DNA of 64,000 nucleotides from assembly GCF_002886045.1 (NCBI RefSeq), contig NZ_CP025791.1:3611001-3675000 (forward strand), given 5' to 3'. Within the stretch, counting starts at the first letter, position 1, and the number at the start of each line of letters is the position of its first letter. Positions 29,065 through 60,204 of this stretch are shown here, in pieces. The notes beneath the pieces were generated by a model. It searched no databases. It worked only from the letters and a program-made list of their open reading frames with translations, and had not been told where the DNA came from. The stretch comes from Flavivirga eckloniae. Its GTDB lineage: Bacteria; Bacteroidota; Bacteroidia; Flavobacteriales; Flavobacteriaceae. A program made the position numbers and the translations under genes.

Positions 29065-29138
29065 GGTCTGGTAGTTCAGTTGGTTAGAATATCTGCCTGT
29101 CACGCAGGGGGTCGCGGGTTCGAGTCCCGTCCAGACCG
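29065..29138 (+). tRNA. tRNA-Asp (anticodon GTC)
   Basis: 74 nt, full cloverleaf. Acceptor stem GGTCTGG/CCAGACC, D-arm GTTC/GAAT with AGTTGGTTA loop, anticodon stem TCTGC/GCAGG with loop CTGTCAC (anticodon GTC), T-arm with GGGTTCGAGTCCC, and discriminator G. CCA is not encoded (GCAA follows). The last 9 nt and the following terminator are repeated 9.9 kb downstream. Confidence 0.97.
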
Positions 29139-29154
29139 CAAAATTGCAAAAAGA

Positions 29155-29181
29155 AAGCTCTGAGAAATTAGGGCTTTTTTT
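29155..29181 (+). terminator. tRNA-Asp terminator
   Basis: AAGCTCT (29155-29161), loop GAGAAATT, AGGGCTT (29170-29176, with one G-T pair), then a run of T. An identical copy is at 39056-39082. Confidence 0.8.
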
Positions 29182-29261
29182 GGCAATAAAAAGAAGTTGT
29201 GTTGTTCACGTCTTAGACGTGATGTAGAAATACCAGATTATATTTGGTATTCCAATGAGAA

Positions 29262-29305
29262 GCTTTCCTTTTTTCTTTTTTAGAAGATTGGGATGCTTTT
29301 TTGTT
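29262..29305 (+). terminator. Second terminator-like stem after tRNA-Asp
   Basis: AAGCTTTCC near 29261 can pair with GGGATGCTT (eight of nine positions), followed by a T-run. The same structure recurs at about 39196-39240. Confidence 0.45.
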
Positions 29306-29471
29306 TAGGGCATATTTATTCGACTTTTCAATCTTAGAAGAACATTTATTAAGAAATAAGAAAGCTAACAAAAAAAGGGTCATTGATTCAAACAACAACC
29401 CTTTATGCGTTCTTAATAAGAATGACTAACTCAAATTAACAATGAACACTATTTTATAATAGTTTTATTTT

Positions 29472-30860
29472 TTAAATGCCTAATTCATCAAACAGTTCAA
29501 TTAGTTTTTCATCTGAAGGTCTAGGAGCATTATTATTTACAATATTTCCATGAGGATCAATTAAAATAAAGCGAGGAATACCAGCTATTGAATACCCTTT
29601 TATAAAATCTGATTCTAAGGCATTGTCTGCGAGTAACTGAATACCATCTAATTTTTCTTTATCAATAAAAGCTCTCCATTTTTCGTAATTCTTTCTCTCA
29701 TCAACCGAAATCGTAACAAACTGAATATTTTTACCATGGTATTTTTTTTCAACTTTATCTAAAAAAGGCATTTGGTAAATGCAAGGCCCACACCATGTGG
29801 CCCACACGTCTATATATACGTATTTGCCTTTAAAGTCATCTAAAGAATTAGTGCCACCAGCATAATTTTCGTAATCCACAAATTTAGGAGAAGGAGAACC
29901 AGCTGCAACGCGTTTTAAAATATTATATTTTTCGGTGACTTTTGCTATATGTTTTTCGTTTGTAGATGTTGTTTTGAAGGCACTATAATAACCATCCAGA
30001 TCTTCGAAATAATCCATATACATAATCGCATTTTCAAACAATAAGCTGTCTTTTATAAACGTATTGTTAAGTGTTGCTAGTTCTTTTAAATAAGCAACTT
30101 CATCTGATATTCCTTCAGATTCAACTATTTTTTGAGCTTTTTTTCTGTAATGAAACTTAATAAGCTCTTTATAAGATTCTGAGAATAAAAAATCGGCATC
30201 ATTGGTATAGGAAAGACCTTCTAACTCATAATGAAGATCTTTTGATTCTTCGAAATTAGGTGTCTTTATCATAATATGAAGATCTTCTAATAATGTAAGA
30301 TCTAACAAGTATTCATAATTGATGTTTCTTTTTTCTTGGGTCTTGAAAACTTCAGAAAGACCTTCGGTTGAGGCCAATACTTTCATAATAGACTTTTTCA
30401 ATTCTATTTGCTTAGCTTTAAAAGTAGCTTGGTCTAATTGATAAATAGATGAAATACTATCTGTTTGCACAGATTTATCAAGAGCAGTTTTTAACTGTTC
30501 TTTTTTCAACAAATAGTTGTTAGCCGCACTACCCTCACCAGAAAACGTTATCGTATTTTTAAAATCACTTGCATCGTAAGTCATATTAATATCATTACCG
30601 TTTTCTAGATACAATTCCATTCTGTTTTTTTTTGCATCAACAAACATGTAGTGTCCTGTGTTTTTGATCTTAATAGTATCAACAAAACGACCATCTTCTT
30701 TTAAGATAATAGGGCCTAAACCAGTTATATGAAGGTTTATTTTATTATCAGCGTGGTTTTCAATTTTTCCTGAAAACACTATGTAATCTCTGGGTGTAGT
30801 TATTTTTTCACAGGACATAACTGTAATAGTAATACTTAAAAGGTATATTATTTTTTTCAT
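29472..30860 (-). CDS. TlpA-like thioredoxin-fold lipoprotein
   Basis: 462 aa. A lipoprotein signal peptide (SITITVMSC) is followed by a DUF4369-like beta domain (GKIENHADNKINLHITG, then DGRFVDTIKIKNTGHY), a long helical middle, and a C-terminal AhpC/TSA-type thioredoxin domain with VWATWCGPCIYQMPFL (W-C-G-P-C near residue 353-357) and a cis-Pro in IAGIPRFILID. It probably reduces disulfides at the periplasmic face. Last gene of the first SusCD locus, separated from the lipoprotein gene by a strong hairpin. It lies inside the tRNA-Asp island. Confidence 0.85.
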   Translation of the reverse strand: MKKIIYLLSITITVMSCEKITTPRDYIVFSGKIENHADNKINLHITGLGPIILKEDGRFVDTIKIKNTGHYMFVDAKKNRMELYLENGNDINMTYDASDFKNTITFSGEGSAANNYLLKKEQLKTALDKSVQTDSISSIYQLDQATFKAKQIELKKSIMKVLASTEGLSEVFKTQEKRNINYEYLLDLTLLEDLHIMIKTPNFEESKDLHYELEGLSYTNDADFLFSESYKELIKFHYRKKAQKIVESEGISDEVAYLKELATLNNTFIKDSLLFENAIMYMDYFEDLDGYYSAFKTTSTNEKHIAKVTEKYNILKRVAAGSPSPKFVDYENYAGGTNSLDDFKGKYVYIDVWATWCGPCIYQMPFLDKVEKKYHGKNIQFVTISVDERKNYEKWRAFIDKEKLDGIQLLADNALESDFIKGYSIAGIPRFILIDPHGNIVNNNAPRPSDEKLIELFDELGI

Positions 30861-31006
30861 TTTAATTATTGATTATAAATAGATTAGTAGATTACGGAAC
30901 AATAGCTATACAAGCTCATACTCTTACAACGAAGTGAGATTTATAAAACAGAATATAGTATCGTTATATTGTTGTTTTTTTGTTGAAGAACAGAAATTAT
31001 TTAAAT

Positions 31007-31035
31007 AGTATAGCTTCTTAAAAAGAAGCTATACT
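31007..31035 (-). terminator. Strong hairpin downstream of the lipoprotein gene
   Basis: AGTATAGCTTCTT (31007-31019), AAA loop, AAGAAGCTATACT (31023-31035): a 13-bp perfect stem 18 bp past the stop of the minus-strand lipoprotein gene. There is no good T-run on the minus strand, so it may protect the susC-D transcript 3' end rather than terminate. Confidence 0.55.
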
Positions 31036-31053
31036 AGCTTATCATTTTAATAA

Positions 31054-31794
31054 TTATTCTTTGGGAGTAATGACTTTTGTTCCACTAATAGGAAAACTAC
31101 CAGAATATGTAAAATCTAAAGTAATCACTTTAGTGACAGTGTTGTATGTACCTGTACCTTCCATAGTCTCTGATCCACCATAACATGGGAAATTCTGCTT
31201 CTCTACAGTAACAGGGCCTTCAGTGGCGGATGTTAGCTGTCCAAATTTTATAATGACCGTGGGTGTACCTGCAGAACAGAAAAAATCAAAAGGATCTCCT
31301 CCAGATAATTCCAGTATTCCATTATCTAAATCACTTGTAGGAACTTCTACCATTGACACAAAAAAACCGAGATCTTCAGTTACTACTACTGTGCCTACCC
31401 AAGGAGAAATATCTACAGGAGGAGGGACTACGGTAATCTCTACGTTTGAAATTTGAGAAACACCTTCTTTACTGACGCTAACTTCAAGAGTGACCTTAGA
31501 ATCAATGGGTAAATTGGCAACGGCATCAGAGGCAACAATAAGCTCACCGTAAGTTTGCCCAATTGTAAAAATTCCTTCAGGTGTTTGAGAGTTGATACTA
31601 TAGTTTATTGTTCCTTGGTTAGAAGTCCCAGGAACAATGCCAATGGTATCTCCAACTATTGCCGATATGGCCAATTCTGCAAAAAAATCGTCAGTTTGTA
31701 CAATTAATGGGCTTGCATCATCATTACTACAGGCTACAAAAAAGCCTATCGTAAGTATTGCTATTATGGATACTATTTTTTTCATAATTTTCAT
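31054..31794 (-). CDS. Putative surface lipoprotein of the SusCD locus
   Basis: 246 aa. Signal peptide and lipobox are MKKIVSIIAILTIGFFVACSND (shown in part; Cys at about 22). The next 80 residues look like a cadherin/Ig-like strand repeat (GTINYSINSQTPEGIFTIG, then SKVTLEVSVSKEGVSQISNVEIT). The C-terminal half is beta-rich with two Cys (CSAGTP, FPCYGG). It has the position of SusE/SusF-type accessory lipoproteins, 3 bp after susD, but no recognisable ligand-binding family. Start ATG at 31794 or 31785. Confidence 0.7.
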   Translation of the reverse strand: MKIMKKIVSIIAILTIGFFVACSNDDASPLIVQTDDFFAELAISAIVGDTIGIVPGTSNQGTINYSINSQTPEGIFTIGQTYGELIVASDAVANLPIDSKVTLEVSVSKEGVSQISNVEITVVPPPVDISPWVGTVVVTEDLGFFVSMVEVPTSDLDNGILELSGGDPFDFFCSAGTPTVIIKFGQLTSATEGPVTVEKQNFPCYGGSETMEGTGTYNTVTKVITLDFTYSGSFPISGTKVITPKE

Positions 31795-31797
31795 GTT

Positions 31798-33210
31798 TTA
31801 GTCTCTTGGGTTTTGAATAATTTCAGGGTTGATTTGAATGTATTTTAACCCGATAGGTAATACAAAATTTTGGCTGTTAGGGGGTAGTGTAACGGTTTGA
31901 TCCCCAAAGGTATGTGTTACTGAAATGTTGTCGTTATCCAAAAGATTGTAACGTTTAATATCAAAAAGGCGATCTATACTTCCTCCAGACTCCCTTCTGC
32001 GTTCTTCTTTTACAAATTGGAGTAATTCTGTCTGATCGGTAATAGAAATAGGAGTATAGGTTTCTGGAGTAAACCTGTTTGATCGTAGCGTGTTTAAAGC
32101 ATCATTGGCCGATTGTATGTTGCCTAATCTTGCATTAACTTCTGCTTGTATTAAATATAATTCGGGAGTGTTTAAACCTGAAGCCCCGCCTTGAAAATAC
32201 CTAGCGCCATAGTAAACACCATCTAGATCAGCGATATTTGGTCTTAAATCGGCATACCATTGTCTGCGAACATCTCCATCTTCATAAAGATTGATTAGTG
32301 CATCTGTTGGGGCGTTTTGCAGAAAGAATCCCACTGTTTTGTACCAAACAACTTGAGGATTATCTAAAACAAAAGGAACAACACGTAAGCTAGGGTCGGA
32401 AAAGCTAGTTTCATCGGTATTAATATCTCTCAAATCGTTCTTTAAAGACAAGGCGTTATTAACAGCAACTAATGCCTCTTCGTAATGACCTTGGTACAGG
32501 TATACTTTTGCTAATAACCCATAAGCTGCAGCCTTAGATGGTCTAAAAATAAGGTCTTGGGGTTGGGTGTCTGGTAAAATCTGAATTCCAAACTGAATTT
32601 CACTAAGAACAAGGTCGTAAACTTCTTGTACAGATGCCCGGATTAAATCCAATCCTGTTAAAGCAACACCCTCTCTAATTGGAACTCCTAAATCTGAACT
32701 TGCTGTGGCACTGTTATAATGAGTTGCGTATAAATTTACAAGATTAAAGTATGCATATGCCCTATGTAACTTGGCTTCTGCTTCTAAAACATTTTTCTCT
32801 GACATACTCCCTTCTGCCGATTCCAGACCATCTAAAATTACGTTGGCTGCATAAATTTGTGAATAATAAGCATTAAAATCTGTATCGTCTTGGGATGCGT
32901 TATAGATTGTAGGGTCAAATAAGTAAGCTCTAATATCTGTATCTTGATTAAAGAATGCGGCTGCTAAAGCAGGACTTAGTCTAATATCATCACTAAAAAA
33001 CTGACTTATGGTGTGCGTTTTTTGAAAGCCATCAACCAGCCCTCCATCGAAAAAACTAAGTGCCGTATTATCTAACAACAACCTAAAATCGGCAAGTGTT
33101 TCTGGAACAATCACATTTTTGGGCTGTATGTCTAGGTACTCTTCTCGGTCACATGCTGTAATCGCTACAAAGCAAATTACTGTTAGTGCTATATATTTTA
33201 TATTTTTCAT
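31798..33210 (-). CDS. RagB/SusD family nutrient-uptake outer-membrane lipoprotein
   Basis: 470 aa with lipobox (VICFVAITACDREEYLD). SusD hallmarks are ACDREEYLDIQPKN, LDNTALSFFDGG, a TPR-like helical scaffold (LHRAYAYFNLVNLYA, AAAYGLLAKVYLYQGHYEEAL), and the C-terminal LYLIQAEVNARLG and RRRESGGSIDRLFDIKRYNLL. It forms the surface lid over the SusC barrel and binds the substrate. The substrate cannot be read from the sequence, and no glycosidase or peptidase is encoded nearby. Confidence 0.92.
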   Translation of the reverse strand: MKNIKYIALTVICFVAITACDREEYLDIQPKNVIVPETLADFRLLLDNTALSFFDGGLVDGFQKTHTISQFFSDDIRLSPALAAAFFNQDTDIRAYLFDPTIYNASQDDTDFNAYYSQIYAANVILDGLESAEGSMSEKNVLEAEAKLHRAYAYFNLVNLYATHYNSATASSDLGVPIREGVALTGLDLIRASVQEVYDLVLSEIQFGIQILPDTQPQDLIFRPSKAAAYGLLAKVYLYQGHYEEALVAVNNALSLKNDLRDINTDETSFSDPSLRVVPFVLDNPQVVWYKTVGFFLQNAPTDALINLYEDGDVRRQWYADLRPNIADLDGVYYGARYFQGGASGLNTPELYLIQAEVNARLGNIQSANDALNTLRSNRFTPETYTPISITDQTELLQFVKEERRRESGGSIDRLFDIKRYNLLDNDNISVTHTFGDQTVTLPPNSQNFVLPIGLKYIQINPEIIQNPRD

Positions 33211-33258
33211 TTTTATTCTTTTGATTTATTACTTTTTTTAGATTAAACCTAAGTTTAT

Positions 33259-36200
33259 TTAAAAGGAAGCAGAAATGTTTAATGTATAAGTAGCTTGCCT
33301 AGGAATAAAAGCACTTTCTGGATCAACGTCCCATTTATTAAAGTTCCAAACGACCATATTATCTGCTTGAAATCCTATTTGAAGGCTATTCATGCCTAAT
33401 CTTTCTAAAGTTTTTGTTGGGAATACATAGCCAAAACTTAGCTGGCTTAAACGGATATGTGATGCGTCATCCACAAATTTATTAGAGTCTCTGTAATAGG
33501 CATATCCTAATATTCCCCTATCTTGAAAAGCAGGTATTGCGGGAATATCTGTATTGTTTTCATCTCCAGGGTTTTGCCATCGATTAACATAATCTGCAGG
33601 TACATTTTCTAAAGGACTAACTCTGTTTGCAGGTATAAAAGAAGCGTTTCGATATCTAAATACATGACCAGCTTTAAATGTGGTCAATGTTCTTAGATAA
33701 AAGTTTTTATATTCTAAATTATTAACCCATGAGCCATAGTATTTAGGCAATAAAGAACCTTCTTCTACCAAAGCATCTGGTTCAAAGATGTTAGCTCTGA
33801 AATCGACAATTCGATTATTTTCATTTAAAAACTGAGGTGCACCATTACGATCTAACCCTTGATAATTATAGCTATAAATGGTTCTTAACGGTAGATCTGG
33901 AATTGCCAAATTACCATTTACATAATCGAATATCTGTGCGTTGCTTTGAACATCTACCTTTATTAAAGTATTTGTATTTACGCTAAAATTACCTGTAGTA
34001 GTATATCTGAAATTATCGCCTCGTAAGGGTCTTAAAGTTAAATTAATGTCAAAGCCTTCGTTACGTAATGTACCATTATTTATTCGAGCGCCGTTTACTC
34101 CAGAAATAGGATTAACCGACGTAAAAGCTAGTAAATCTTCACTATCCTTTTTATAATATTCTACGCTACCACTGATTAGATTGCCAAACAATCCAAAGTC
34201 TAATCCTAAATTCAATGCATTGGTCCGTTCTAAACGTAATTCTGGGTTAGGGAGCCCTGTAATATCTGCATTTGTGCCATTTACAAAAGGAAACGAAATA
34301 TTTTTTGGGGTGATTAACAATTGCGGACTGGTAGATCTATCCACGTTACCATTAATACCATATGTGGCGCGTAGTTGCAGCCTGTTTATGTTTTGGTTAC
34401 CAGTAAAAAACTCATTGGCAATGTTCCATTTAGCACCAACAGAATATAGAGGTATATTTCTATATTCGTCCGATGCACCAAATAAGTTGGTGTCGTCTAA
34501 ACGTGTACTTCCAGATATGGTATATTTATTATCGAAAGTATAGGAAGCATTTGCAAAATAAGAGATAAAACGATTTTCGACAAATACATTTTCATTAAAG
34601 TCAGGAATTAAACTTGCAAACCTTAGTGGCAAACTTTCTGTAAAATCGGTCGTAAAATCAACAAGCTTAGCATCTAAAGAGCGTTCATCATAACCATATT
34701 GTCTGCTCGTAGCCCTCTCAGCAATGGTTTTACGTACTTCATAACCTGCTATAGCGGTTACTTGGTGTTTTTCATTAAAAAGCTTATCGAAGTTTAATTG
34801 TGTCCTAAAGGTATGTGCTCTTTGATTGCGGGTATCTATATCTAAAATAGCGCCTACTGGAATAGCATTAGACACCGGTAATTGTGTGCTAGGGTCTAAT
34901 TGTGTAAAAAGATTTACCCGAAACCTCGTATAAAAAGATTGCTCGTTATGAAAGTCTCTTATATTTTGCTGTTGCCATTCATATTGATAAGTGACGCTTG
35001 CATCCAACCCATCAATAATATTATAATTCAGACCCGTATTTAATCGTAAGGCTGTTTCTCGTAAAATATTATCTGCATTATCTAACTCTTGTTTTAAATT
35101 ATAGGTCCAATCATACGGAAATCCACGCTCCAACGCTAAATTTGAAGCTTCCTGATTTAAAGCTAGAAAATTTTGCATAGGTAAATAATTGCCATTGTCA
35201 TCTAAAATTCTACTGTTTATAGAAGTACTTAAAAGGTTTTGCGCACTACTAGCTCTAGGGGTTTCAAAACTATCGCTACCTGAAAATCTACCAAAATCAT
35301 CATTAACTGAAGTAGATCCAAAACTTTCCTTAGATTGTGAAAAGTTAATAGAACCACTTACTTTTAATTTTGATGATATATTGAAGGAATTGGCAAAATT
35401 GATTAGATACTGATTTGCCTTAGTGTTTATTAATTCTTTCTGGTTGTCATTGTAGCTTATCGATGATCTAAAATCGTATTTTTCACTACCCCCGTTTATA
35501 GAGAAATTATATTGTGTCCATATTTCTGGACGCTGAATAAGACGGGAATATTCTCTTCTGATATCTGTATTTTCAAGTTGTTCTAACCTTGATTGAGCCT
35601 CCTCTGATGAAATATCGCCACGGTCTTGTAGCAAAAGGGTCTGTACTACTGGATTCAATACCTGACCAGAAGCTACATTAAGATTACCATTGAATAAATT
35701 AGTTTGATCATGGAACCCTCCTCTTTCGAAAACCTCTCGTTGATAGGCCACTTGTGTTGCTGCATCTGCAATTGGCGCGGCAAACAAATCTGGTTCTGGA
35801 GTAATAGAAGTATTTACTGAAGCGTTAATAGTTAGCTTACCATTTCTATTTCCTTTTTTAGTAACGATAACTATAACACCATTTGCAGCTCTTATACCCC
35901 AAATAGAGGCTGCAGCAGCATCTTTTAATATGGTAATGCTTTCAACATCATTTGGGTTTATAGTATTTTGGTTTTGCTCAATGGGGAAACCGTCTACAAC
36001 AATTAGTGGGTCACTATTAGCACTTATCGTACTGAGTCCACGAATAATAAAATTACCGTCAGTATCTGTGGTAACACCAGCGACTTCTCCTTCAATCTTA
36101 GAGAAAATATTTTGATTGATTTTTAAATCTAATGTTTTCTCATTGACACGTTCAAAAGAACCCGTAGAGCGCTCTTTGGAAATGGTTTGGTAACCTGTTG

Positions 36201-36834
36201 AAACTATTTCTACGGTATCAAGTTCGAAAGAAGATGGTGCCATTTGCACATTGTAAGTAGTGCCTTGCCCAATGATAACTTCAGAATCAAGATAGCCAAG
36301 GTAGCTTAAGACTAATGTTTCTCCTTCTTGAGCGTCTATTTTATAAATCCCATCAAAACTAGTAGTTGCTCCACGTAACGTTCCTTTAACAATTACAACA
36401 ACCCCAATTAATGGCTCACCATTCTCGTCTGTTACTTTGCCTTGTATTTTTTGTTGTACAATAGCAGGTTTCCTTTTTATAACAATGGTATTCTTGCCAG
36501 AAATGTTGAATTTAAAATTTCCTTTTGGTAAAATTTCTTGCAACAGCTTGTTGGCTCGAATAGTTCCTCTTTTAAGATTTACACTTGGAAAACCTTTAAA
36601 CATGTCTTCTTGATAAATAAATCTGTAATCAGTTTGGGCTTTAATAATTTTAAAAATTTCATCTACTGTAACAGTCTTATCTGCATCAATATTGATTTTT
36701 ACTCTTTGAGAAAATACATTATTGGGAGCAAGACTAAATGCAGTGGTGCATATGAAAAAAATAAAAGCTCTCATAAGATGGATTAAAAATTTCTTTCTAA
36801 AATAGAATAGAAGGTTAGTTAATTTAATTTCCAT
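33259..36834 (-). CDS. SusC/RagA family TonB-linked outer-membrane protein with STN domain
   Basis: 1191 aa. Signal peptide to about residue 43 (FSQ). The STN (secretin/TonB short N-terminal) domain is at about 46-120 (DKTVTVDEIFKIIKAQTDYRF), the carboxypeptidase-D regulatory-like domain at about 129-213 (IQGKVTDENGEPLIGV), and the plug at about 225-335 (GGDG-less form with PNDVESITILKDAAAASIWG). A 22-strand-type barrel ends in the aromatic SASF. The STN domain marks receptors that signal to an anti-sigma factor, in line with the fecR gene just upstream. Confidence 0.93.
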   Translation of the reverse strand: MEIKLTNLLFYFRKKFLIHLMRAFIFFICTTAFSLAPNNVFSQRVKINIDADKTVTVDEIFKIIKAQTDYRFIYQEDMFKGFPSVNLKRGTIRANKLLQEILPKGNFKFNISGKNTIVIKRKPAIVQQKIQGKVTDENGEPLIGVVVIVKGTLRGATTSFDGIYKIDAQEGETLVLSYLGYLDSEVIIGQGTTYNVQMAPSSFELDTVEIVSTGYQTISKERSTGSFERVNEKTLDLKINQNIFSKIEGEVAGVTTDTDGNFIIRGLSTISANSDPLIVVDGFPIEQNQNTINPNDVESITILKDAAAASIWGIRAANGVIVIVTKKGNRNGKLTINASVNTSITPEPDLFAAPIADAATQVAYQREVFERGGFHDQTNLFNGNLNVASGQVLNPVVQTLLLQDRGDISSEEAQSRLEQLENTDIRREYSRLIQRPEIWTQYNFSINGGSEKYDFRSSISYNDNQKELINTKANQYLINFANSFNISSKLKVSGSINFSQSKESFGSTSVNDDFGRFSGSDSFETPRASSAQNLLSTSINSRILDDNGNYLPMQNFLALNQEASNLALERGFPYDWTYNLKQELDNADNILRETALRLNTGLNYNIIDGLDASVTYQYEWQQQNIRDFHNEQSFYTRFRVNLFTQLDPSTQLPVSNAIPVGAILDIDTRNQRAHTFRTQLNFDKLFNEKHQVTAIAGYEVRKTIAERATSRQYGYDERSLDAKLVDFTTDFTESLPLRFASLIPDFNENVFVENRFISYFANASYTFDNKYTISGSTRLDDTNLFGASDEYRNIPLYSVGAKWNIANEFFTGNQNINRLQLRATYGINGNVDRSTSPQLLITPKNISFPFVNGTNADITGLPNPELRLERTNALNLGLDFGLFGNLISGSVEYYKKDSEDLLAFTSVNPISGVNGARINNGTLRNEGFDINLTLRPLRGDNFRYTTTGNFSVNTNTLIKVDVQSNAQIFDYVNGNLAIPDLPLRTIYSYNYQGLDRNGAPQFLNENNRIVDFRANIFEPDALVEEGSLLPKYYGSWVNNLEYKNFYLRTLTTFKAGHVFRYRNASFIPANRVSPLENVPADYVNRWQNPGDENNTDIPAIPAFQDRGILGYAYYRDSNKFVDDASHIRLSQLSFGYVFPTKTLERLGMNSLQIGFQADNMVVWNFNKWDVDPESAFIPRQATYTLNISASF

Positions 36835-36887
36835 AAATTTGCTTGTTTTAATTGATTAAACATTAATTAGTTAATACACACTATAGA

Positions 36888-36927
36888 GGGGCGAAGATCG
36901 ATACCGCAAAATGTCTTCTTCGTTCCC
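36888..36927 (-). promoter_or_regulatory. Intercistronic hairpin between fecR and susC, locus 1
   Basis: On the transcribed strand: GGGAACGAAGA (36927-36917), a 19-nt loop, then TCTTCGCCCC (36897-36888). This is a 3+6 bp stem with a small internal loop, starting 9 nt after the fecR stop. The second locus has the same layout with different bases (55021-55061). No T-run follows, so it is more likely a processing, stability or attenuation structure than a terminator. Confidence 0.5.
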
Positions 36928-36935
36928 TTTCTATG

Positions 36936-38087
36936 TTATTTTAGGACTATTTTTTTATTGTTAATTTCATAAGAATTTATAAATCCCAAGTCTGTTATAG
37001 TATTCAAAATTTCTTCTATTTTTTGTTCTTTGCCTAATACGCCAATAAACCTAACATCTTCAAGTTCGGCGTTATTAAAAGTAACATCCATGTCATACCA
37101 TCTGGATAAAACTTTCATAATAGACTTTAAAGATTTACCCTCAAAACTAAAGACTCCTTCTCTCCATGAAATCTCATTGTATATGTCTATGTTTTTTGTT
37201 TCTATATCTTTTGAATCTCCTACAATAGATTGTTCTTTAGGTTTTAAGACCACAGTTTCTGCCCCATTAGATACTCCAACTTTGCCTTCTACTAATGTTG
37301 TGTAAACATGCACTTCGTCTTGATATGCTTTTATATTGAATTCTGTACCTAAAACCTCTACTTCTTGCATGTTATGTGCTACTTTAAATTTGGCTCCGTG
37401 GTGTTTGGTGCTAGATGTTACATCAAAATAGGCTTCACCGTAGATCAATTCTACTTCTCTGGTTTGACCTTTTATAAAAGCAACGGGGTATTTAATTTGA
37501 GATTCTGAGTTTAACCATATTTGGGTGCCATCTGATAACTTTACAGAAAATTGTCCGCCTCTTGGTATGGTTAAATAATTGTATGCTATTTTAGGGCTAG
37601 TAGCGGGTTGCGAATTATAAATTATTTCTTCGCCATTACTATTTAAATTATCTGTAGTATATTTTTTGCCTTTTTCTAAATTAATGGAAGAACCTTCACT
37701 TAAGGTTAAAGTTGCTTTATCTGTACCTATTTTTATTTTGTTGTTTACTATTATAGGAGTGTTGTCTTTAACGGGTTTATCCTTAGTTAAGAAAAAGTAA
37801 CCTGCTGATACAAAGATTAAAATTGCAGCAGCGTACTTGAAAATAGGTGTTAAAAACAATTTTCTTGCTTTCTTGGTAGAGGTATCTTTATTTGAGAAAT
37901 TCTCATAAGCAGCTAGAGAATCAAATATCAGGTCACTATTTAATGTGTGGTGTATGGTTAAATACTCTTTAAAGATTTTAAGATTTTCTTTTTTATCTAA
38001 CCATTTACTTAAACCGTCTATTTCAGATACAGAGGCTTCATTATTTATATATTTGGAGATGATTTTCTCCATATCTTTTTTTGTCAT
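36936..38087 (-). CDS. FecR-family anti-sigma factor (DUF4974 C-terminus)
   Basis: 383 aa. The cytosolic N-terminus (about 1-80) has the sigma-binding-type helix KYINNEASVSEIDGLSKWL. One transmembrane helix (83-100, KYAAAILIFVSAGYFFL) follows. The periplasmic FecR domain contains NYLTIPRGGQFSVKLSDGT, IWLNSESQIKYP, EVELIYGEAYFDV and VLGTEFNIKAY. The C-terminal DUF4974 contains SLKSIMKVLSRWYDMDVTF. It should receive the signal from the STN domain of SusC and hold or release the divergently encoded ECF sigma factor. Confidence 0.93.
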   Translation of the reverse strand: MTKKDMEKIISKYINNEASVSEIDGLSKWLDKKENLKIFKEYLTIHHTLNSDLIFDSLAAYENFSNKDTSTKKARKLFLTPIFKYAAAILIFVSAGYFFLTKDKPVKDNTPIIVNNKIKIGTDKATLTLSEGSSINLEKGKKYTTDNLNSNGEEIIYNSQPATSPKIAYNYLTIPRGGQFSVKLSDGTQIWLNSESQIKYPVAFIKGQTREVELIYGEAYFDVTSSTKHHGAKFKVAHNMQEVEVLGTEFNIKAYQDEVHVYTTLVEGKVGVSNGAETVVLKPKEQSIVGDSKDIETKNIDIYNEISWREGVFSFEGKSLKSIMKVLSRWYDMDVTFNNAELEDVRFIGVLGKEQKIEEILNTITDLGFINSYEINNKKIVLK

Positions 38088-38214
38088 GAGTTTAAAATTT
38101 AATACAAGGTAATTTAGGACTATTGACGATATGACGTTTTATTTTTTGAAAACCACCATTATTTATTTAAATTTCTTTCTTTTGTAAACATATTTGCAGA
38201 GAAATCCAGTTATT

Positions 38215-38808
38215 TTGAAGAATCTTTCATATACCAACGAGGCACTTATTGATGCTTTTAAGAATGGTGATAAGGAGGTGTATAAATACATATACTTAAC
38301 TTATTATCAGGATCTGTGCGTATATATTAAAGGTTATACTAATGATAAGCAGGCAGCAGAAGATATTGTGCAAAATGTACTATTAAAGCTATGGGAGAAT
38401 AGAGATGAAATTCAAATTCATTCTTCTTTTAAAGGTTTTCTCTATAAGTCTGTTTATTACTCTTTTATGGATCTTTACAGGAAAAAGAAAAGAATAAATG
38501 AGAAGTTAGAATCTTTGAGATATAATATTTTAAATGAATTGATTGAAGATGATAATGAATTGAAGGAAAAAAGGCTACTGGCTTTAAGAAAGGCAATAGA
38601 AGAACTACCTACTAAATGCAAGGAAATATTTGTTTTAAGTAAGTTTGAAGGATTGAAATATAAAGAGATAGCGGATGCTTTAGGTATTTCAATAAATACT
38701 GTAGAGAATCAGGTAGGTAAAGCATTTAAGATCTTAAGAAAAAAAATGTTCGAAAATAAATATTTAAATCTTTTTATCAATTTTTTTGCAGGAGGTAAGC
38801 GGGTTTAA
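38215..38808 (+). CDS. ECF RNA polymerase sigma factor (FecI/Bacteroidetes type)
   Basis: 197 aa. Region 2 is EDIVQNVLLKLWENRDEI and FLYKSVYYSFMDLYRKKKRINEK (shown in part). Region 4 is LPTKCKEIFVLSKFEGLKYKEIAD and SINTVENQVGKAFKILRK (shown in part). No ATG precedes the conserved part. The TTG at 38215 (product start KNLSYTNEALIDAF) fits the length of the paralogue at 53146-53751, and a TTG at 38194 is also possible. It is divergent from fecR across a 127-bp spacer. It presumably directs transcription of the fecR-susCD-tlpA genes. Confidence 0.9.
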   Translation: MKNLSYTNEALIDAFKNGDKEVYKYIYLTYYQDLCVYIKGYTNDKQAAEDIVQNVLLKLWENRDEIQIHSSFKGFLYKSVYYSFMDLYRKKKRINEKLESLRYNILNELIEDDNELKEKRLLALRKAIEELPTKCKEIFVLSKFEGLKYKEIADALGISINTVENQVGKAFKILRKKMFENKYLNLFINFFAGGKRV

Positions 38809-39030
38809 TTTTAAGAGATAATCTATTCAAAGTTAAAAATGGTTCATTAAATTTATTTGACAATTGTATTGTTTTGTCACACCACAAATTATATATTTGA
38901 ATCTTAAGAGTTATTTTGACATTATAAGAAATCATATAAAAGTTCACAAATCGTCAACACAAGTTTGTAAAATACAGAGAGTGTTAGGTTTTATATGATT
39001 TACAAGCATAAGATAAGGTTTGGATTCCTA
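38809..39030. other. Gene-free stretch at the right edge of the tRNA-Asp island, with tRNA remnant
   Basis: AT-rich, with no gene. Its last bases (39015-39030) read AAGGTTTGGATTCCTA, followed directly by TCCAGACCGCA of the right repeat. Laid on tRNA-Asp, this resembles a decayed T-arm (GGGTTCGAGTCCCG) joined to an intact acceptor 3' strand. It is what a degenerate tRNA 3' end would look like. Confidence 0.5.
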
Positions 39031-39241
39031 TCCAGACCGCAAAATTGCAAAAAGAAAGCTCTGAGAAATTAGGGCTTTTTTTGGCAATAAAAAGAAGTTG
39101 TGTTGTTTATCTCAATGAAAATTGAGGTAAAAAGGTAGAGTTGCTGAGTGATACTGAAATAAATTCAGTACTAGAGTTCAGCACACGCCAATGAGAAGCT
39201 TTCCTTTTTTCTTAATTGAAGATTGGGATGCTTTTTTGTTT
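39031..39241. repeat. Right copy of the tRNA-Asp 3'-end direct repeat (attR-like)
   Basis: 39031-39107 equals 29130-29206 exactly (77 bp), including the tRNA 3' end TCCAGACCG and its terminator. The middle (39108-39187) differs from the left copy and is made of inverted repeats: CTCAAT/ATTGAG, TGCTGA/TCAGCA and TACTGAA/TTCAGTA. The end (39188-39241) again matches, including GAAGATTGGGATGC and the T-run at 39218-39241. Confidence 0.9.
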
Positions 39242-39296
39242 TGTAGGATTTTGTTTCTATTTTAGATTATTTATTAATTTTCAAATAATTAGAGAT

Positions 39297-40160
39297 ATGA
39301 CAGACAAAACAGTAGGTAAAGTTATACCTGATGAATTTTATAAAGCATCTAATTTTTTTACATTAAGTGGAGCAGCTGGTGCTGTGTGGTTATTTTGCTT
39401 AGTTTTAGCAAATCTAGACCCTGATGCAAAACTCTTTACCCCTGCCTATTACAGGTTGATAGCTTTAGGTTTGAGTGAGACCATTGCAATAGTAATGTTA
39501 ATGAGGGTTAGACGAAAAAAAAAGTTTGAACTATGGCTTTTTGCTTTTTTCAATGGGTTGCTGATATTCATAAATGCTTCTGGATTAAACGCAATTTCTT
39601 CAAAGCTTTCTTTTGAAAATACTAGTTCAATTCAAAGTAAAATCATTACAAACAATACACCACAAAAAGCATCATTTGTATCAAATTTTTTCAAACGTGA
39701 AATAAGTTGGTGGATTGAGGATACTTATTATTCAGATAAAAGACAGGTTTTAGAGAAAAATGAGTTCTTAAATAAAAAGAACAAACAATTTTCTGAAAAT
39801 ATAAATCTTCTTAAAATCAAGTATGATTCAATTCATAAAGTTAATGATTCATTGAGAAAAATCATTTCAGTAAAAGAGAAGCCTGTAAAGGAAATTATAA
39901 AATTGAAAACTAACGATTGTAAGCCAGAGATAGATAAACTTAATGATAAAATAATAAAGTTGAGGAATCTGAATAATTCTATAACTAAAGGGCTTACAGG
40001 AAAAATAAACAAGTTGGAGAATGAACTCAATAAGTACAAGAAATTAGAGAAATCTAAAATGATTAAAGTAGGAGAAACTCCTTATTCTACTTTAATTGTT
40101 GAAATAGATAGATTGAGAAAAAAGCTAATTGAATGTGAATCAAAATATGACCAAAATTAA
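39297..40160 (+). CDS. Membrane protein with C-terminal coiled coil (unknown)
   Basis: 287 aa from the ATG at 39297 (MTDKTVGKVIPDEFY); the longer reading from 39216 lies in the duplicated repeat. There are three hydrophobic helices at about 22-42, 55-72 and 80-98, with a cytosolic RVRRKKKFE loop. A linker and a long Lys/Glu/Asn-rich coiled coil (about 150-285, with heptads such as LNDKIIKLRNLNNSITKGL) follow. No enzymatic motif and no family recognised. It stands immediately right of the tRNA-derived repeat and ends in its own terminator. Confidence 0.75.
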   Translation: MTDKTVGKVIPDEFYKASNFFTLSGAAGAVWLFCLVLANLDPDAKLFTPAYYRLIALGLSETIAIVMLMRVRRKKKFELWLFAFFNGLLIFINASGLNAISSKLSFENTSSIQSKIITNNTPQKASFVSNFFKREISWWIEDTYYSDKRQVLEKNEFLNKKNKQFSENINLLKIKYDSIHKVNDSLRKIISVKEKPVKEIIKLKTNDCKPEIDKLNDKIIKLRNLNNSITKGLTGKINKLENELNKYKKLEKSKMIKVGETPYSTLIVEIDRLRKKLIECESKYDQN

Positions 40161-40186
40161 TATTAATTAATTCAATTATATGTTAT

Positions 40187-40218
40187 GAGCTACAAGAAAT
40201 TGTAGCTCTTTTTTTTTG
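40187..40218 (+). terminator. Rho-independent terminator
   Basis: GAGCTACAA (40187-40195), GAAA loop, TTGTAGCTC (40200-40208), then nine or ten T residues. It ends the coiled-coil membrane protein gene. Confidence 0.85.
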
Positions 40219-40279
40219 TCATAAACTTAATTCCTAAGTTATCAATTTTGATGGCTTTTTTTATATAAAGCTTTAAAAA

Positions 40280-40317
40280 GTAAGGATAAACCTTACAAAG
40301 TGTAAGGGCAAACCTTA
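40280..40317. promoter_or_regulatory. Tandem dyads in the spacer before the tail-fibre-like gene
   Basis: GTAAGG-ATAAA-CCTTAC (40280-40296) and TAAGG-GCAAA-CCTTA (40303-40317) have the same arms, with centres 22 bp apart (two helical turns). They lie about 200 bp upstream of the ATG at 40511. They could be an operator pair or two small hairpins. The rest of the 350-bp spacer (40161-40510) holds the terminator and AT-rich DNA. Confidence 0.4.
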
Positions 40318-40510
40318 GCAGTTTTTCAGTTATATTCTATAATTTTATAATGTTCTAAACCACAGAAAGATATGGTGTGTTTGTAAACGTGTTATTTCGT
40401 TTATTCGGAGGTCTTAAATATCTGGTGTAGGTATGTTAATCATTTTAAAATAGTGCGATAAAAAATAATCAAAGAGTAAAACAACTATAATTAATCTAAA
40501 AATTTATAAA

Positions 40511-41410
40511 ATGAAAACAATTATTTTAGGAATTTCATTACTCGTAATGAGTTTTGGAATGCAGGCACAGAATACAAATGTAGCTATTGGAATTGGGGGT
40601 ACAACTACAGCATCTGATTTTTATTATAATACTACAAATAATAATATTGGTATAGGGACTATTCCTACTAATAGTGAACAACTCACTATTGATTCAGGAT
40701 CTTCTAGTGGTATTTTACGTATGAAAAGTACAAATGAAAGCGGATATGCTTTCTTTTTGGGCGCAGGAAATTCATTTAGTTTAGTTGACTACTCAAACTA
40801 TAATACAGTTTGGGCAGTTAAAAATGGTAGACTAGGATTGGGTACTACTCCTAGTTTAGGATGGCTTCATATAAGAGCTGTTGGAGAAGATATATTGGCT
40901 CTACAATCTTATAATACTCCTGCCTCTTATATTTTTAAAATAGATGGAAATGGTTTAAAACTATGGAATAACCTTAATTCTAATACACCATTCGAAGTTA
41001 AAAATAACGGGGATTTTATTGCAAATGGTAATGTAGGAGTTGGAACTACAACAATGGGCTCCCACAAATTGGCAGTCGAAGGTAGTATAGGAGCCAGAGA
41101 AGTTAAAGTAGAAGTAGGATCATGGTCCGATTTTGTTTTTGAGGAAGCATATAATTTACCTGCTTTGGAAGAGGTTGAAAAATATATTTTGGAAAAAGGG
41201 CACTTGGAAAACATTCCTTCTGAGAAACAAGTATTAGAAAATGGGATTTATTTAGGAGATATGAATGCTAAACTGTTACAGAAAATAGAAGAGTTAACAT
41301 TGTATACTATTGATCAAGAAAAACAATTAAAAGCTCAAAATACTACAATCGATACTTTGGCAACTAAATTATTAGAATTGCAATTAGAGATTGAGAAATT
41401 AAAAGAATAA
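40511..41410 (+). CDS. Secreted tail-fibre-domain-like protein
   Basis: 299 aa with signal peptide (MKTIILGISLLVMSFGMQAQ). The middle is built of short Gly-rich strand repeats (NIGIGTIPTNSEQLTI, RLGLGTTPSLGWLHI, GNVGVGTTTMGSHKLAVEG). The C-terminus has the widespread Bacteroidetes ending LPALEEVEKYILEKGHLENIPSE, then GIYLGDMNAKLLQKIEELTLYTI, and a trimer-type coiled coil. This matches exported proteins annotated as tail fibre domain proteins. It is probably a trimeric surface fibre; partner and role unknown. Confidence 0.78.
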   Translation: MKTIILGISLLVMSFGMQAQNTNVAIGIGGTTTASDFYYNTTNNNIGIGTIPTNSEQLTIDSGSSSGILRMKSTNESGYAFFLGAGNSFSLVDYSNYNTVWAVKNGRLGLGTTPSLGWLHIRAVGEDILALQSYNTPASYIFKIDGNGLKLWNNLNSNTPFEVKNNGDFIANGNVGVGTTTMGSHKLAVEGSIGAREVKVEVGSWSDFVFEEAYNLPALEEVEKYILEKGHLENIPSEKQVLENGIYLGDMNAKLLQKIEELTLYTIDQEKQLKAQNTTIDTLATKLLELQLEIEKLKE

Positions 41411-41529
41411 TTAGTTTTAGATTTTATATAGCAAATTTCTATACCGATTTATTCGTAATTATACTAAAGTAAATTAGGTGTTTCAATAAGGAAGAAACTT
41501 TTCTTGTGTATTGGAATTGAGATGCATGT

Positions 41530-41854
41530 CTAATACAGCTACGGTGTACCCACAAATATGGCAGCATATTAAATAATAATTTTACAAAGATAGACACTAA
41601 TTTCACGAATTATCACAAATGGTTCTAAATATAAATTATTTACAAATAAGTAATTCAAGTTTACTTATCAATAAATTAGAGTGCAGGAATATAATAGAAT
41701 TAAATCGGGTTTGGATTGTAAAAACAGACTGAAAGTCTGATTCGTGATTATGAATAGTATAGAGAGTTATCCACCATATTGAGGTTTTATTCGTGTAAAT
41801 CTGTGTAATTCGTGGCTTGATTAAAAAGATGTGGGTACACCGTAGCTAATACAG
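41530..41854. mobile_element. MITE-like element, copy 1, with 9-bp target duplication
   Basis: The 307-bp element at 41539-41845 has perfect 16-bp terminal inverted repeats, CTACGGTGTACCCACA and TGTGGGTACACCGTAG. It is bracketed by CTAATACAG at 41530-41538 and 41846-41854. Internal inverted repeats are CACGAATTA/TAATTCGTG and the hairpin CAGACT-GAA-AGTCTG (41725-41739). There is no open reading frame, so it is non-autonomous. A copy of identical length is at 62021-62327. The remainder of the 41411-41916 spacer shows nothing else. Confidence 0.85.
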
Positions 41855-41916
41855 ACAGGCTTTTTGTTCTACAAGGTTTTGTGTTTTTCAACAAGCATAT
41901 CTTTTGGCAGCTGAAA

Positions 41917-43386
41917 TCAACGAATAGAGTCCCCCTGATGTATAGTCATTTCAAGCAATTCATACTTTTGACTTATTTTTTTTGGATCAGCGATATAATT
42001 GTTTTTTAAATGTCTGTCAAAGAAAGCTGTTACAAGCTCATTAGTAATTTTAATGCCTAATTCGGCATCTACAGCCCCCGTTTGTGCAAGTTCTTTAATA
42101 GGTATCATAAAAGGTATATCCATGAAATTTGGATGTGCCGAAGTAAGTATTTTACTTTCATAAAAATAGTCAGTACTTTTATTTTTATATACGTGCGAGT
42201 TTATGTCCTCATGTTCTGCCGGCCAATCTGCCGAAATATATAGGAATGGAACATGATAAATAGTATCCATCATTTCTCCCCATTGTACGCCATCAATATT
42301 AGCCGCGGCTTTTATTCTGGTATCTTTTATGGCCGTTTGACCTGCCGCACCACCACCGCGAGAGTGCCCAAAAACACCTATTCGATTTAGGTCTAACTTA
42401 TCTTTTAAAAACCCTGTACTGTTCCAATTTTCTAATTGATCTATGGTATAAATAATATCTGTAGTCCATCTTTTTATCATATTAGTCACAGAATAGCCTT
42501 TGGAAGCCTCTCTTATAATGGCATGTCGCTCTTCAAAAGAGAGCTCTTTTTTAAAAGCTTCTTTTACAGGTTTCATACGTTCCAATACATTCACTGTTTG
42601 GTTGGCTTGAAATTCATAATCGAAAAACTTCTCACGCCCATCAGGAAATGTAGACCCTAAACTTTCGTAAGTATGATTTAAATTTAAAATGATATAGCCC
42701 TGACTGGCAATCTCGGTTAAAAGAGAATAATACCCCAAAGCATTAGAGCCATACCCGTGAGAAAAAATCAAAACAGGAAAATTTTTTTCAACGATCGGTA
42801 CATTTTCATAAACATAGGTATCTACATGATCTAAATAATTTAATAGATTAGGGTTTATACCTCCTAGATATTTATTTATAAAACTTACTCTGTTTGCCCG
42901 ATCTAGATATGGCTCTTGTTTTCCGGAAACAATAGAGGACGAAGGGTACCAAACTTTGACCATAAATTCTCTTTTGTCGTTTTCGTCTTTGGTAATAATT
43001 TCGTCAATATTTGTTTTTAGATGGATAGAATGAGTTCCTACAGGGTATTCTCCGGTGGGTTTGGGTAGTGAAAATACAGGAAGTAAATTCGGTAAAAACC
43101 AGCTAGGAATTAGTAATATTATAATGAAGATATAGCCAAGACCTCTTAAAAAGGTTAATTTATTAGTCTTTGTTTGGTCAATAGAAATAATCCTCCACAT
43201 TAAAACAAGCATTAAGAGATATGCAGGAATTAGCTGCCAGCGACAACTTTCAATAACTGTATGTAAAATTAAAATTGTGGCTAAAGCAATTAACAAATAT
43301 TTTTTGTTTATAATTTTAAGTAAGGGCCGTTTTACAAAAGGTAAAATAGTTACTATTAGTAATAATATAATTTCTAGAATTCTCAT
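41917..43386 (-). CDS. Membrane-anchored alpha/beta hydrolase, PAF-acetylhydrolase-like
   Basis: 489 aa. Four N-terminal hydrophobic helices (about 3-112) are followed by a hydrolase domain: PTGEYPVGTHSIHL, MVKVWYPS, FPVLIFSHGYGSNALGYYSLLTEIASQGYI (oxyanion region, shown in part) and the nucleophile elbow FGHSRGGGAA near residue 342-351. A catalytic Asp (INLDGVQWG area reads NIDGVQWG) and a His (SAHPNF) are in the usual order. The layout and the G-x-x-x-VG-x-H/Y-type start match the platelet-activating-factor acetylhydrolase/dienelactone group. Its ATG overlaps the upstream gene's TGA by 4 bp. Confidence 0.78.
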   Translation of the reverse strand: MRILEIILLLIVTILPFVKRPLLKIINKKYLLIALATILILHTVIESCRWQLIPAYLLMLVLMWRIISIDQTKTNKLTFLRGLGYIFIIILLIPSWFLPNLLPVFSLPKPTGEYPVGTHSIHLKTNIDEIITKDENDKREFMVKVWYPSSSIVSGKQEPYLDRANRVSFINKYLGGINPNLLNYLDHVDTYVYENVPIVEKNFPVLIFSHGYGSNALGYYSLLTEIASQGYIILNLNHTYESLGSTFPDGREKFFDYEFQANQTVNVLERMKPVKEAFKKELSFEERHAIIREASKGYSVTNMIKRWTTDIIYTIDQLENWNSTGFLKDKLDLNRIGVFGHSRGGGAAGQTAIKDTRIKAAANIDGVQWGEMMDTIYHVPFLYISADWPAEHEDINSHVYKNKSTDYFYESKILTSAHPNFMDIPFMIPIKELAQTGAVDAELGIKITNELVTAFFDRHLKNNYIADPKKISQKYELLEMTIHQGDSIR

Positions 43387-43772
43387 TTCGTTTTTATGTT
43401 TAATGCATTTAATTTAATCTTTAATAATAGCCAGGATAGATAGGATAGTATAAATATGCCTAGCCCATAAAGTGTTGTGATTGTAGAAACTTTAAATCCT
43501 GCAAAGAGAAGATCGGAATCGACATTACCCCAATTTTCGATGGATTCGAATGCTTCATAAAGAGCAATAATTTGCCCAAAAAGACCAAAGGCTAAAGCAA
43601 ACACACCAAGATATCTTATATAATCAATCTCCTTTTTTGCAGCCTTTTTTGACGAGAATTTATTAGCAAAAAGAAAAGAAGCGCTTCTTGCTACCATAAC
43701 GATGTTTATTAATAACATTAATGTTAGTGGTAGTGTAAATATGAGGCCGCCATTTTTGATAAAATCTATCAT
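43383..43772 (-). CDS. MotA/TolQ/ExbB-like small membrane protein
   Basis: 129 aa with three hydrophobic helices (about 9-34, 52-72 and 89-120). The stretch FGLFGQIIALYEAFESI, followed by SDLLFAGFKVSTITTLYGLGIFI, reproduces the last two helices of the ExbB/TolQ proton-channel fold (L-G-x-x-G-T-x-x-G-x-x-x-A-F, then A-L-x-T-T-x-x-G). No ExbD/TolR partner is nearby. The gene is translationally coupled to the hydrolase (ATGA overlap). Confidence 0.72.
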   Translation of the reverse strand: MIDFIKNGGLIFTLPLTLMLLINIVMVARSASFLFANKFSSKKAAKKEIDYIRYLGVFALAFGLFGQIIALYEAFESIENWGNVDSDLLFAGFKVSTITTLYGLGIFILSYLSWLLLKIKLNALNIKTK

Positions 43773-43926
43773 GTCTTTATTAATTGTTTTTTAAAAAAAT
43801 TATCAGTTTAAAATTAGAAATATTATAGGTTTCTGGGCATGTTAAATCCGATGTTAAACTAGTTATTCATCGACAAAAAATATTGTTTTTAAAAATTAAT
43901 GAGATCTTTATGCTAAATTTACTTAC

Positions 43927-44646
43927 ATGCGCATACTTTTACATGTTTTGTTTTGGATATTTAGTAGTTTTCTAATTGTATTCTTTATTGGAAAAAAGGG
44001 GAGTTTATCTTTTACACTTGCTTTTACTGGTTTTTTACTTCCAGTAGTTATAACAATTTCTTATCTTTTTAATTATTGGTTGTTTCCGCAATACTTGTTT
44101 AAAAAACAACTGTTTAAATTTGTTTTGTACGGATTGCTCGTTGTTGTACTTTCTGTATATCTGGAAACTCTTATTGTTTTATGGGCACTTGTTAATTTAG
44201 GTAATTATTCTTTTAATAACATGACTCCTGCAAGTCATAACATTGAGCAATTAGCTGTTGCTTTGTTTTTTGTTGTTTTTCTGAGCAATCTGATTTATCT
44301 GGTTAGAAGGTGGTCTGTAAAAGAAAAAGACTCTGAGACATTAATTCAATTTAGATCTAATAGAGAGACTGTACAGCTATCAGAAAAGGCAATTGATTAT
44401 ATTGAAAGCCTAGGGGATTATGTTAAAATACATAGTGAAGCAAAAGTGTTTACCAGCAGAGAAAAGATTAGTAAATTGGAAAATAGATTACCTTCTAACT
44501 TTATTAGAGTCCACAGATCATACCTTATAAATACTTCGAAAATTGAGTCTTTTAATAATACAAAAATTGAAATACAAGGAAATAAGATTCCCATTAGTAG
44601 AAAATACAAACCTGAGGTTTTAGAAAAACTAAAAATAATCAAGTAA
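43927..44646 (+). CDS. Membrane-anchored LytTR transcriptional regulator
   Basis: 239 aa. Four hydrophobic helices (about 3-24, 30-50, 60-86 and 104-126) are followed by a LytTR DNA-binding domain from about 140: LSEKAIDYIESLGDYVKIH, FTSREKISKLENRLP and FIRVHRSYLINTSKIESF. There is no receiver domain, so the signal is probably sensed in the membrane part. It is divergent from the TolQ-like/hydrolase pair across 154 bp, the natural target region. Confidence 0.88.
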   Translation: MRILLHVLFWIFSSFLIVFFIGKKGSLSFTLAFTGFLLPVVITISYLFNYWLFPQYLFKKQLFKFVLYGLLVVVLSVYLETLIVLWALVNLGNYSFNNMTPASHNIEQLAVALFFVVFLSNLIYLVRRWSVKEKDSETLIQFRSNRETVQLSEKAIDYIESLGDYVKIHSEAKVFTSREKISKLENRLPSNFIRVHRSYLINTSKIESFNNTKIEIQGNKIPISRKYKPEVLEKLKIIK

Positions 44647-44761
44647 CCATATTCTTAATTACTGTTTACCTATTTTTTATTTTGGAATATTTAAATAAGA
44701 TGTGACCTTTTGTTTTTGCCAGTGTCTTAATACCAAACTTAATATTTAAAATCTGGTAAAC

Positions 44762-45091
44762 ATGGCAAAGTTTGAAATTTATAAAGACAAAAGAAAAGAA
44801 TTTAGATTTAGATTAAAAGCAGGGAATGGTCAAAATATATTGGCTAGCGAAGGTTATGCATCCAAAGCTGGGTGTACTAATGGCATTGAATCCGTAAAAA
44901 AGAATTCAACAGACGATACTAGATATTCTCGATTAGAGTCTAAAGGCGGTAGTCCTTATTTTAACTTAAAAGCTTCAAATGGACAAGTTATAGGAACTAG
45001 CGAAATGTACTCATCTACTAGCGCTATGGAGAATGGTATCGCTTCGGTTAAGAAGAATGCTTCAGAAGCCTCTGTAGAGGATTTATCATAG
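44762..45091 (+). CDS. YegP/DUF1508 family protein
   Basis: 109 aa made of two copies of the roughly 50-residue DUF1508 repeat: KFEIYKDKRKEFRFRLKAGNG...GIESVKKN and YFNLKASNGQVIGTSEMY...GIASVKKN. Each gives a three-stranded sheet plus helix. It is a small soluble protein of unknown function, common in bacteria. Confidence 0.88.
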   Translation: MAKFEIYKDKRKEFRFRLKAGNGQNILASEGYASKAGCTNGIESVKKNSTDDTRYSRLESKGGSPYFNLKASNGQVIGTSEMYSSTSAMENGIASVKKNASEASVEDLS

Positions 45092-53751: not shown

Positions 53752-53862
53752 TGTTTTTTTGTGCCCAAATGGTTAATAGTTAGGTTACAAAAATGAAAAA
53801 AAATAAATTAAGACTAGGGGATTTAAAAAAACTGTTGTCATAAAGTTATAATATAGTTAATA

Positions 53863-55014: not shown

Positions 55015-55020
55015 AAAAAA

Positions 55021-55061
55021 GGGTACAAAGCCTCGGTCGTCCAAAACTAAAACTTTGTCCC
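55021..55061 (+). promoter_or_regulatory. Intercistronic hairpin between fecR and susC, locus 2
   Basis: GGGTACAAAG (55021-55030), a 22-nt loop, CTTTGTCCC (55053-55061). This is a 3+6 bp stem with one bulged T, starting 7 nt after the fecR stop. The paired positions differ from those of the locus 1 hairpin (36888-36927), yet pairing and placement are kept. The sequence just before susC (CAAATTTATG) is shared by both loci. Confidence 0.5.
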
Positions 55062-55103
55062 TAAGTACATTAATTATTAATCAATAACTAACTCAACAAA
55101 TTT

Positions 55104-58700: not shown

Positions 58701-58711
58701 AAACGTAAAAC

Positions 58712-60181: not shown

Positions 60182-60204
60182 CAATTTGAGTTAGTCTCTC
60201 TACG

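Follow-up and report, generated by a model that had tools for sequence, protein, structure and literature searches.

The CIMEs of streptococcal ICEs are characterized, in the part of a review that treats them, by the loss of integration and transfer genes, the retention of attL and attR and their occurrence in tandem (PMC5704250). In Dehalococcoides, the islands at ssrA are also arranged in tandem, repeats of the tmRNA 3' end mark their boundaries, and for 15 islands without integration modules the authors suggest, in the sections drawn on here, that they may be cis-mobilizable elements (PMC3146451). Among flavobacteria, the corresponding extracts of another report describe the ICEs ICEEaIII and ICECspPOL2 as integrating at tRNA genes, which for ICEEaIII include tRNA-Asp-GTC (PMC8694125), and a study of gut Bacteroidetes, as excerpted, reports 47 SusC/SusD loci on chromosomal mobile elements (PMC6907783). 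By their titles, the best 12 of 9,908 matching papers describe no genomic island of Flavivirga, and within the collection searched the review PMC5704250 alone brings together cis-mobilizable, Bacteroidetes and genomic island.

The locus described here lies in a 64,000-nucleotide stretch of the Flavivirga eckloniae genome (hereafter the window; 3.611-3.675 Mb of a 5.67-Mb single-contig genome, G000) and is an island between two copies of a tRNA-Asp 3' end, the right one preceded by a conserved module that we call R1. That the island is of a known kind, an ICE-derived island without an integrase, is well supported by sequence comparison. It differs from the CIMEs above in that it is flavobacterial, in that its right arm alone is recognizable and in that its cargo is a SusCD uptake locus. 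Whereas the Dehalococcoides islands involve a serine recombinase and an ssrA target, R1 elements have tyrosine-recombinase relatives and use tRNA-Asp or tRNA-Lys. In contrast to ICEEaIII and ICECspPOL2, the island yielded no integrase, relaxase or transfer gene in our searches, and unlike the SusC/SusD loci noted in the excerpts of PMC6907783, which belong to gut elements, its locus sits on an integrase-less island of Flavivirga. What we had least expected was a single conserved right end, together with an ICE at the same tRNA-Asp gene that carries SusCD cargo.

A first-pass annotation had described a 77-bp perfect direct repeat around a complete sigma/FecR/SusCD/TlpA locus, with the geometry of attL and attR at a tRNA gene. 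We confirmed the repeat (29130-29206 equals 39031-39107, 9901 bp from start to start), and over an extended 91 nt the pair is 95% identical. The left copy does begin inside the tRNA gene, but its start falls one base before the acceptor-stem strand and not within it as had been stated. Because ARAGORN finds a single tRNA in the window, tRNA-Asp(GTC), the right repeat is a tRNA tail and not a second tRNA. The locus itself was borne out by Pfam for the thioredoxin-like, SusD, SusC, FecR and ECF sigma proteins. The target gene, repeats, cargo and right flank are as follows.

29065-29139, plus strand: tRNA-Asp (GTC), the target gene (ARAGORN)
29130-29206, plus strand: left copy of the 77-bp repeat, tRNA 3' end and terminator (attL core)
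29472-30860, minus strand: TlpA-type thioredoxin-like protein, cargo (PF08534, PF00578)
31054-31794, minus strand: ORF with a lipoprotein-like start (by eye), cargo (no Pfam family)
31798-33210, minus strand: SusD, cargo (PF14322, PF07980)
33259-36834, minus strand: SusC, TonB-dependent receptor, cargo (Pfam)
36936-38087, minus strand: FecR anti-sigma factor, cargo (PF04773, PF16344)
38194-38808, plus strand: ECF sigma factor, cargo (PF08281, PF04542)
39031-39107, plus strand: right copy of the 77-bp repeat (attR core)
39242-44690, no strand: further DNA missing from empty sites, from the right repeat to the DUF1508 gene
44762-45091, plus strand: DUF1508 (YegP-like) gene, right chromosomal flank (PF07411)

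The claim that the 9,901-bp period contains the uptake locus and nothing else did not stand, since the interval also holds the R1 module at 38889-39048. With a GC content of 0.29-0.37, the island does not contrast with its surroundings, and its SusC has a paralogue with 62% identity elsewhere in the same genome.

We compared the site across 12 Flavivirga genomes, among them the window's own, F. aquimarina (G004), F. jejuensis (G005), F. rizhaonensis (G006) and Flavivirga sp. 57AJ16 (G007). The DUF1508 gene directly follows tRNA-Asp in G002 and G010, at distances of 254 and 260 bp, and lies 762 bp away in G003, 1,438 bp in G009 and 1,898 bp in G001. Larger distances separate the two in G006 (7.65 kb), the window (15.6 kb), G011 (28.7 kb) and G008 (67 kb); DUF1508 was not found within the fetched stretches of G004, G005 and G007. 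Since these distances vary so widely among genomes of one genus, we regard the interval between tRNA-Asp and DUF1508 as a hot spot. The earlier suggestion that relatives might show an empty site, or other cargo between the same repeats, proved apt: G002 and G010 are truly empty, with a single repeat copy, and G004-G008 carry different cargo at the same tRNA. Relative to the two empty sites, the extra DNA in the window extends to about 44690, ahead of the DUF1508 gene. SusC/SusD-family proteins occur in or behind the interval in G000, G004, G007, G008 (where the pair lies beyond R1) and G011, with full sigma/FecR/SusCD sets at the site in G000, G004 and G011. To this extent the proposal of a point at which surface-receptor loci are swapped finds support, but such genes are common in the genus.

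The islands of F. aquimarina (L030) and F. jejuensis (L022-L023) have eight consecutive proteins in common that are 93-100% identical, which points to recent transfer of cargo between species; their other cargo differs. In G011, the 28.7 kb between tRNA-Asp and DUF1508 contain two SusCD-type loci, and we found neither R1 nor a second repeat at this site, so not every such locus arrived by the route of R1 elements. F. aquimarina also has an inner degenerate core, which is without R1, and 0.7 kb from the degenerate core a 49-aa stretch is 53% identical to a MobC-like protein. A protein near attR in G004-G006 was considered as a new recombinase and set aside, its G006 copy being an AraC-family regulator by Pfam.

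Similarity beyond the 77 bp, in what had been called further blocks, was likewise confirmed: past the perfect stretch comes a spacer that differs in sequence and length, and then a second matching block that reaches 29306 on the left and 39241 on the right. In relatives, tRNA-Asp is followed by one downstream unit with the order GTTGTGTTGTT, variable spacer, terminator, and 4 of the 17 pairs of the predicted terminator are changed on both sides among 15 sequences. Given this single unit in relatives and the covariation of its terminator, we interpret the further blocks as a conserved transcript end and not as extra att sequence. The window holds two such units and a decayed third.

29191-29306, plus strand: left copy of the tRNA-Asp downstream unit, variable spacer and terminator (spacer resembling those of G002 and G009, by eye)
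39092-39241, plus strand: right copy of the tRNA-Asp downstream unit (spacer resembling those of G001 and G003, by eye)
41447-41525, plus strand: decayed third downstream unit

The left unit is akin to those of G002 and G009 and the right unit to those of G001 and G003. In G001, moreover, the unit is followed by a gene that is partly homologous: around ORF 40511-41410 of the window, three stretches of DNA share 76-82% identity with the G001 gene at the same place. For the decayed unit, the alignment score was reached by 0 of 500 shuffles against the G010 unit, by 0 of 500 against the left unit and by 15 of 500 against the right unit. Units of this kind, with variable hairpins and a terminator as at 29191-29306 and 39092-39241, are present in several flavobacterial genera. 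They had no Rfam match in the loci scanned and are possibly an unnamed small RNA or a 3' trailer.

The feature that sets filled sites apart is R1, about 145 bp that are conserved ahead of the right core.

38889-39048, plus strand: R1 module, right end of the element, with promoter-like box, conserved stretch, arm site and T-arm-like core (105.6 bits)
38941-38959, plus strand: integrase arm-type site AGTTCACAAATCGTCAACA (sequence motif)

Its box, TATATTTG, is what we take to be the flavobacterial promoter consensus. The arm motif is found again between the tRNA and the integrase gene in integrase-bearing elements. No paper in the collection searched contains TTCACAAATCGTCAACA. R1 stands at the filled sites of G000, G004, G005, G006, G007 (two copies) and G008, and G000 has a third copy in addition. 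A BLAST-type search of whole genomes with the G006 copy reported 7 of the 12 genus genomes; once two short matches were set aside (one of 29 bases, E 9e-4, in G002 and one of 37 bases, E 3e-4, elsewhere in G006), R1 was present in six of 12, always at a filled tRNA-Asp site, in a search that may miss diverged copies. Profile scores in the fetched stretches of G001, G002, G003, G009, G010 and G011 were only 11-16 bits, with E above 0.003, and a PF00589 search had no match between the ends of the filled sites in G000 and G004-G008. Across the family, a sequence-only profile built from 11 copies (E up to 1e-6) detected R1 in 20 of 397 genomes and 18 of 237 genera. Most copies that we read out run into a tail like that of tRNA-Asp or tRNA-Lys(TTT); a few have tails too diverged to assign. 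Of 60 family genomes, 6 contained the exact 19-mer arm site and none its reversed control, and the R1 pattern had no match in viral contigs.

We also considered R1 as a structured RNA and rejected this idea: among 11 sequences, 0 of 20 predicted pairs had changes on both sides, and in 16 loci no Rfam match at E up to 1 covered R1. Folding z-scores were -4.4 for the window copy, -2.8 for that of G006 and between -0.2 and -1.8 for the other four tested. The third copy of R1 and core in the F. eckloniae genome is inverted and lies outside the window (genome positions 3682103-3682284, minus strand, 78 bits; repeat part 3682103-3682167), near tRNA-Tyr and followed by genes without counterpart in the fetched stretches of relatives. 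We count this copy against a simple picture. In another family genome, G405, four copies of a tRNA-Lys tail are spaced 103 bp apart at and after R1 (L065, about 9960-10285).

In at least 4 of the 20 genomes with R1, both ends could be seen: the module forms the far end of an element of 11-136 kb that has an integrase at its tRNA side. Such an element at the orthologous tRNA-Asp, for which the first-pass annotation had proposed a search, is carried by G059, orthology being indicated by DUF58 and Clp protease genes alongside, as in the window. There, tRNA-Asp is followed by three ATCGTCAACA sites and then by a 412-aa tyrosine integrase (PF00589, PF13102, PF17293, with Arm-DNA-bind_5 present). 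By pattern, the 157 kb contain two Asp tails, the second of which lies in R1, 136 kb off and in the same orientation, and between the tails is a Pfam-confirmed sigma/FecR/SusC/SusD set. A MobB relaxase scores 368 bits (cut-off 200), and MobC- and TraK-like matches are significant but under their cut-offs. By its gene content, this element is a predicted 136-kb ICE with a SusCD locus among its cargo. G235 follows the same plan at tRNA-Lys over 39 kb, with TraG (322 bits, cut-off 262) and MobB (410 bits) above and TraK, TraM and MobC below their cut-offs. Ten of its proteins have relatives in the G059 element at 41-79% identity, including the integrase, a VirB4/TraG-type ATPase and the relaxase. 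With conjugation and MobB genes and integration at a tRNA gene, both resemble the flavobacterial ICEs. The remaining two elements are at tRNA-Lys, one of 68 kb in G405 and one in G182, where the tRNA is followed by an arm site and a 417-aa integrase, with R1 11 kb away. G042 appears from its sequence to be an integrase-less form at tRNA-Lys: the tRNA and R1 are 5.5 kb apart, and the 20-kb stretch has no match to three integrases. In G018, a 176-aa integrase fragment lies at tRNA-Arg, the arm motif flanks 5.2 kb at both ends and the R1 profile matches weakly (18.5 and 15.5 bits).

That the island lacks an integrase, as first noted, is upheld by a PF00589 search (E up to 0.001) that had no hit in the window. 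A protein search found no integrase of the G059 type there either, Pfam revealed no serine recombinase in the 10 window ORFs scanned, and neither blastp nor tblastn (E up to 1e-4) matched any of 21 proteins from the G235 and G059 elements to the window region. Elsewhere in the genome, PF00589 matches lie at 1.42, 4.94, 5.20 and 5.29 Mb, and the protein search added one broken 86-aa integrase fragment at 3.06 Mb. The 5.29-Mb integrase was examined as a potential helper and rejected; it follows an mnmE/trmE-like gene (by eye), there is no tRNA in 17 kb, and its matched part is 31% identical to the G059 integrase. A search up to 1.5 kb from the left repeat, with up to 1 mismatch allowed, yielded no arm site ATCGTCAACA in the window or in G004-G008, which makes stand-alone excision look unlikely.

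We consider it very likely that the island is a CIME-like remnant that retained its attachment cores and lost its integration and transfer genes. The geometry first described holds, with identical core repeats, R1 at the right copy and no integrase. The definition of a CIME, as worded in the relevant part of PMC5704250, fits the island because it has cores at both ends, a right arm and no integrase or transfer gene that our window searches could find; the attachment sites at both ends are represented by the core repeats, the arm site being at the right end only. A related ICE, with R1 at its far end, occupies the same site in G059. Neither the integrase and conjugation genes of an ICE nor the integrase and relaxase of an IME were found in the island. 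Several observations count against the remnant: the left repeat has no arm site nearby and is followed by a full chromosomal-type unit, where G004-G006 and G008 have an element-specific end; G011 has SusCD-type loci at the site, with neither R1 nor a second repeat found; the inner degenerate core of G004 has no R1; and the third R1 copy is inverted near tRNA-Tyr. The crossover would lie immediately before TCCAGACC, the point at which identity begins, and an ancestral ICE would have lost its left part. An incoming ICE of the R1 family could then integrate at tRNA-Asp beside the island, and the composite could carry the island out by using the island's right end, that is, cis-mobilization by accretion. 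The two R1 copies of G007, the degenerate core and MobC-like remnant of G004 and the decayed unit of the window all fit serial accretion and decay.

An unlikely competitor is homologous recombination, in which conserved flanks and units exchange cassettes without site-specific recombination and the repeat is a by-product. The two window copies of the 77-bp repeat are identical to each other and agree with the ten listed copies of other species at 67 of 78 to 76 of 78 positions, as expected from gene conversion or recent copying, and G011 has cargo without a repeat; against this, 6 of the 12 genomes have R1 with its arm site at the outer repeat of their filled sites, and R1 is at the far end of four integrase-bearing elements. 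Somewhat less probable still is a cargo-only island that continues to move by itself, excised in trans by the integrase of another element. The apparently intact core and right arm, the near-identical eight-protein block of G004 and G005 and an integrase-family frame with one stop at tRNA-Lys of F. jejuensis, with the same arm motif, would suit such movement, but the left repeat has no nearby arm site and, for the G059 integrase, the top match in the F. eckloniae genome is 31% identical. Of the first-pass proposal of a cargo-only island moved in trans, the first half is the best supported reading and the second is unlikely. Insertion between two ancient tandem tRNA-Asp copies, to which the repetition of the unit downstream of the core might point, can be set aside almost entirely, since the window has one full tRNA-Asp, G002 and G010 have a single copy, and the right copy carries, in place of the remaining tRNA, an R1 that is found also with tRNA-Lys tails.

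Beyond the CIME-like remnant in the window, we tentatively propose that R1 could be a signature of mobility that marks a class of cargo-only islands in flavobacteria which has gone unrecognized. One right end of about 150 bp, with promoter-like box, arm site and tRNA tail, might let successive ICEs of the same family at tRNA-Asp or tRNA-Lys shuttle adjoining cargo such as SusCD loci, hydrolases and transporters, and, once the element is circular, its outward promoter may activate the integrase. The comparison as a whole links SusC/SusD surface uptake loci to a definable conjugative element family at the same tRNA gene, and R1 provides a marker of about 150 bp for finding and comparing integrase-less islands that integrase searches miss.

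Two further observations concern the rest of the window. A second sigma/FecR/SusCD-like locus, recognized by its similarity to the first, spans 53146-61963, without a tRNA repeat, between genes that are adjacent in G002, where the locus is absent between the same neighbours. Separately, a 311-bp pair (41537-41847 and 62019-62329) is 91% identical, has inverted terminal repeats of about 18 bp (AGCTACGGTGTACCCACA) and is probably a MITE; its first copy (41537-41847) lies just after the decayed third downstream unit.
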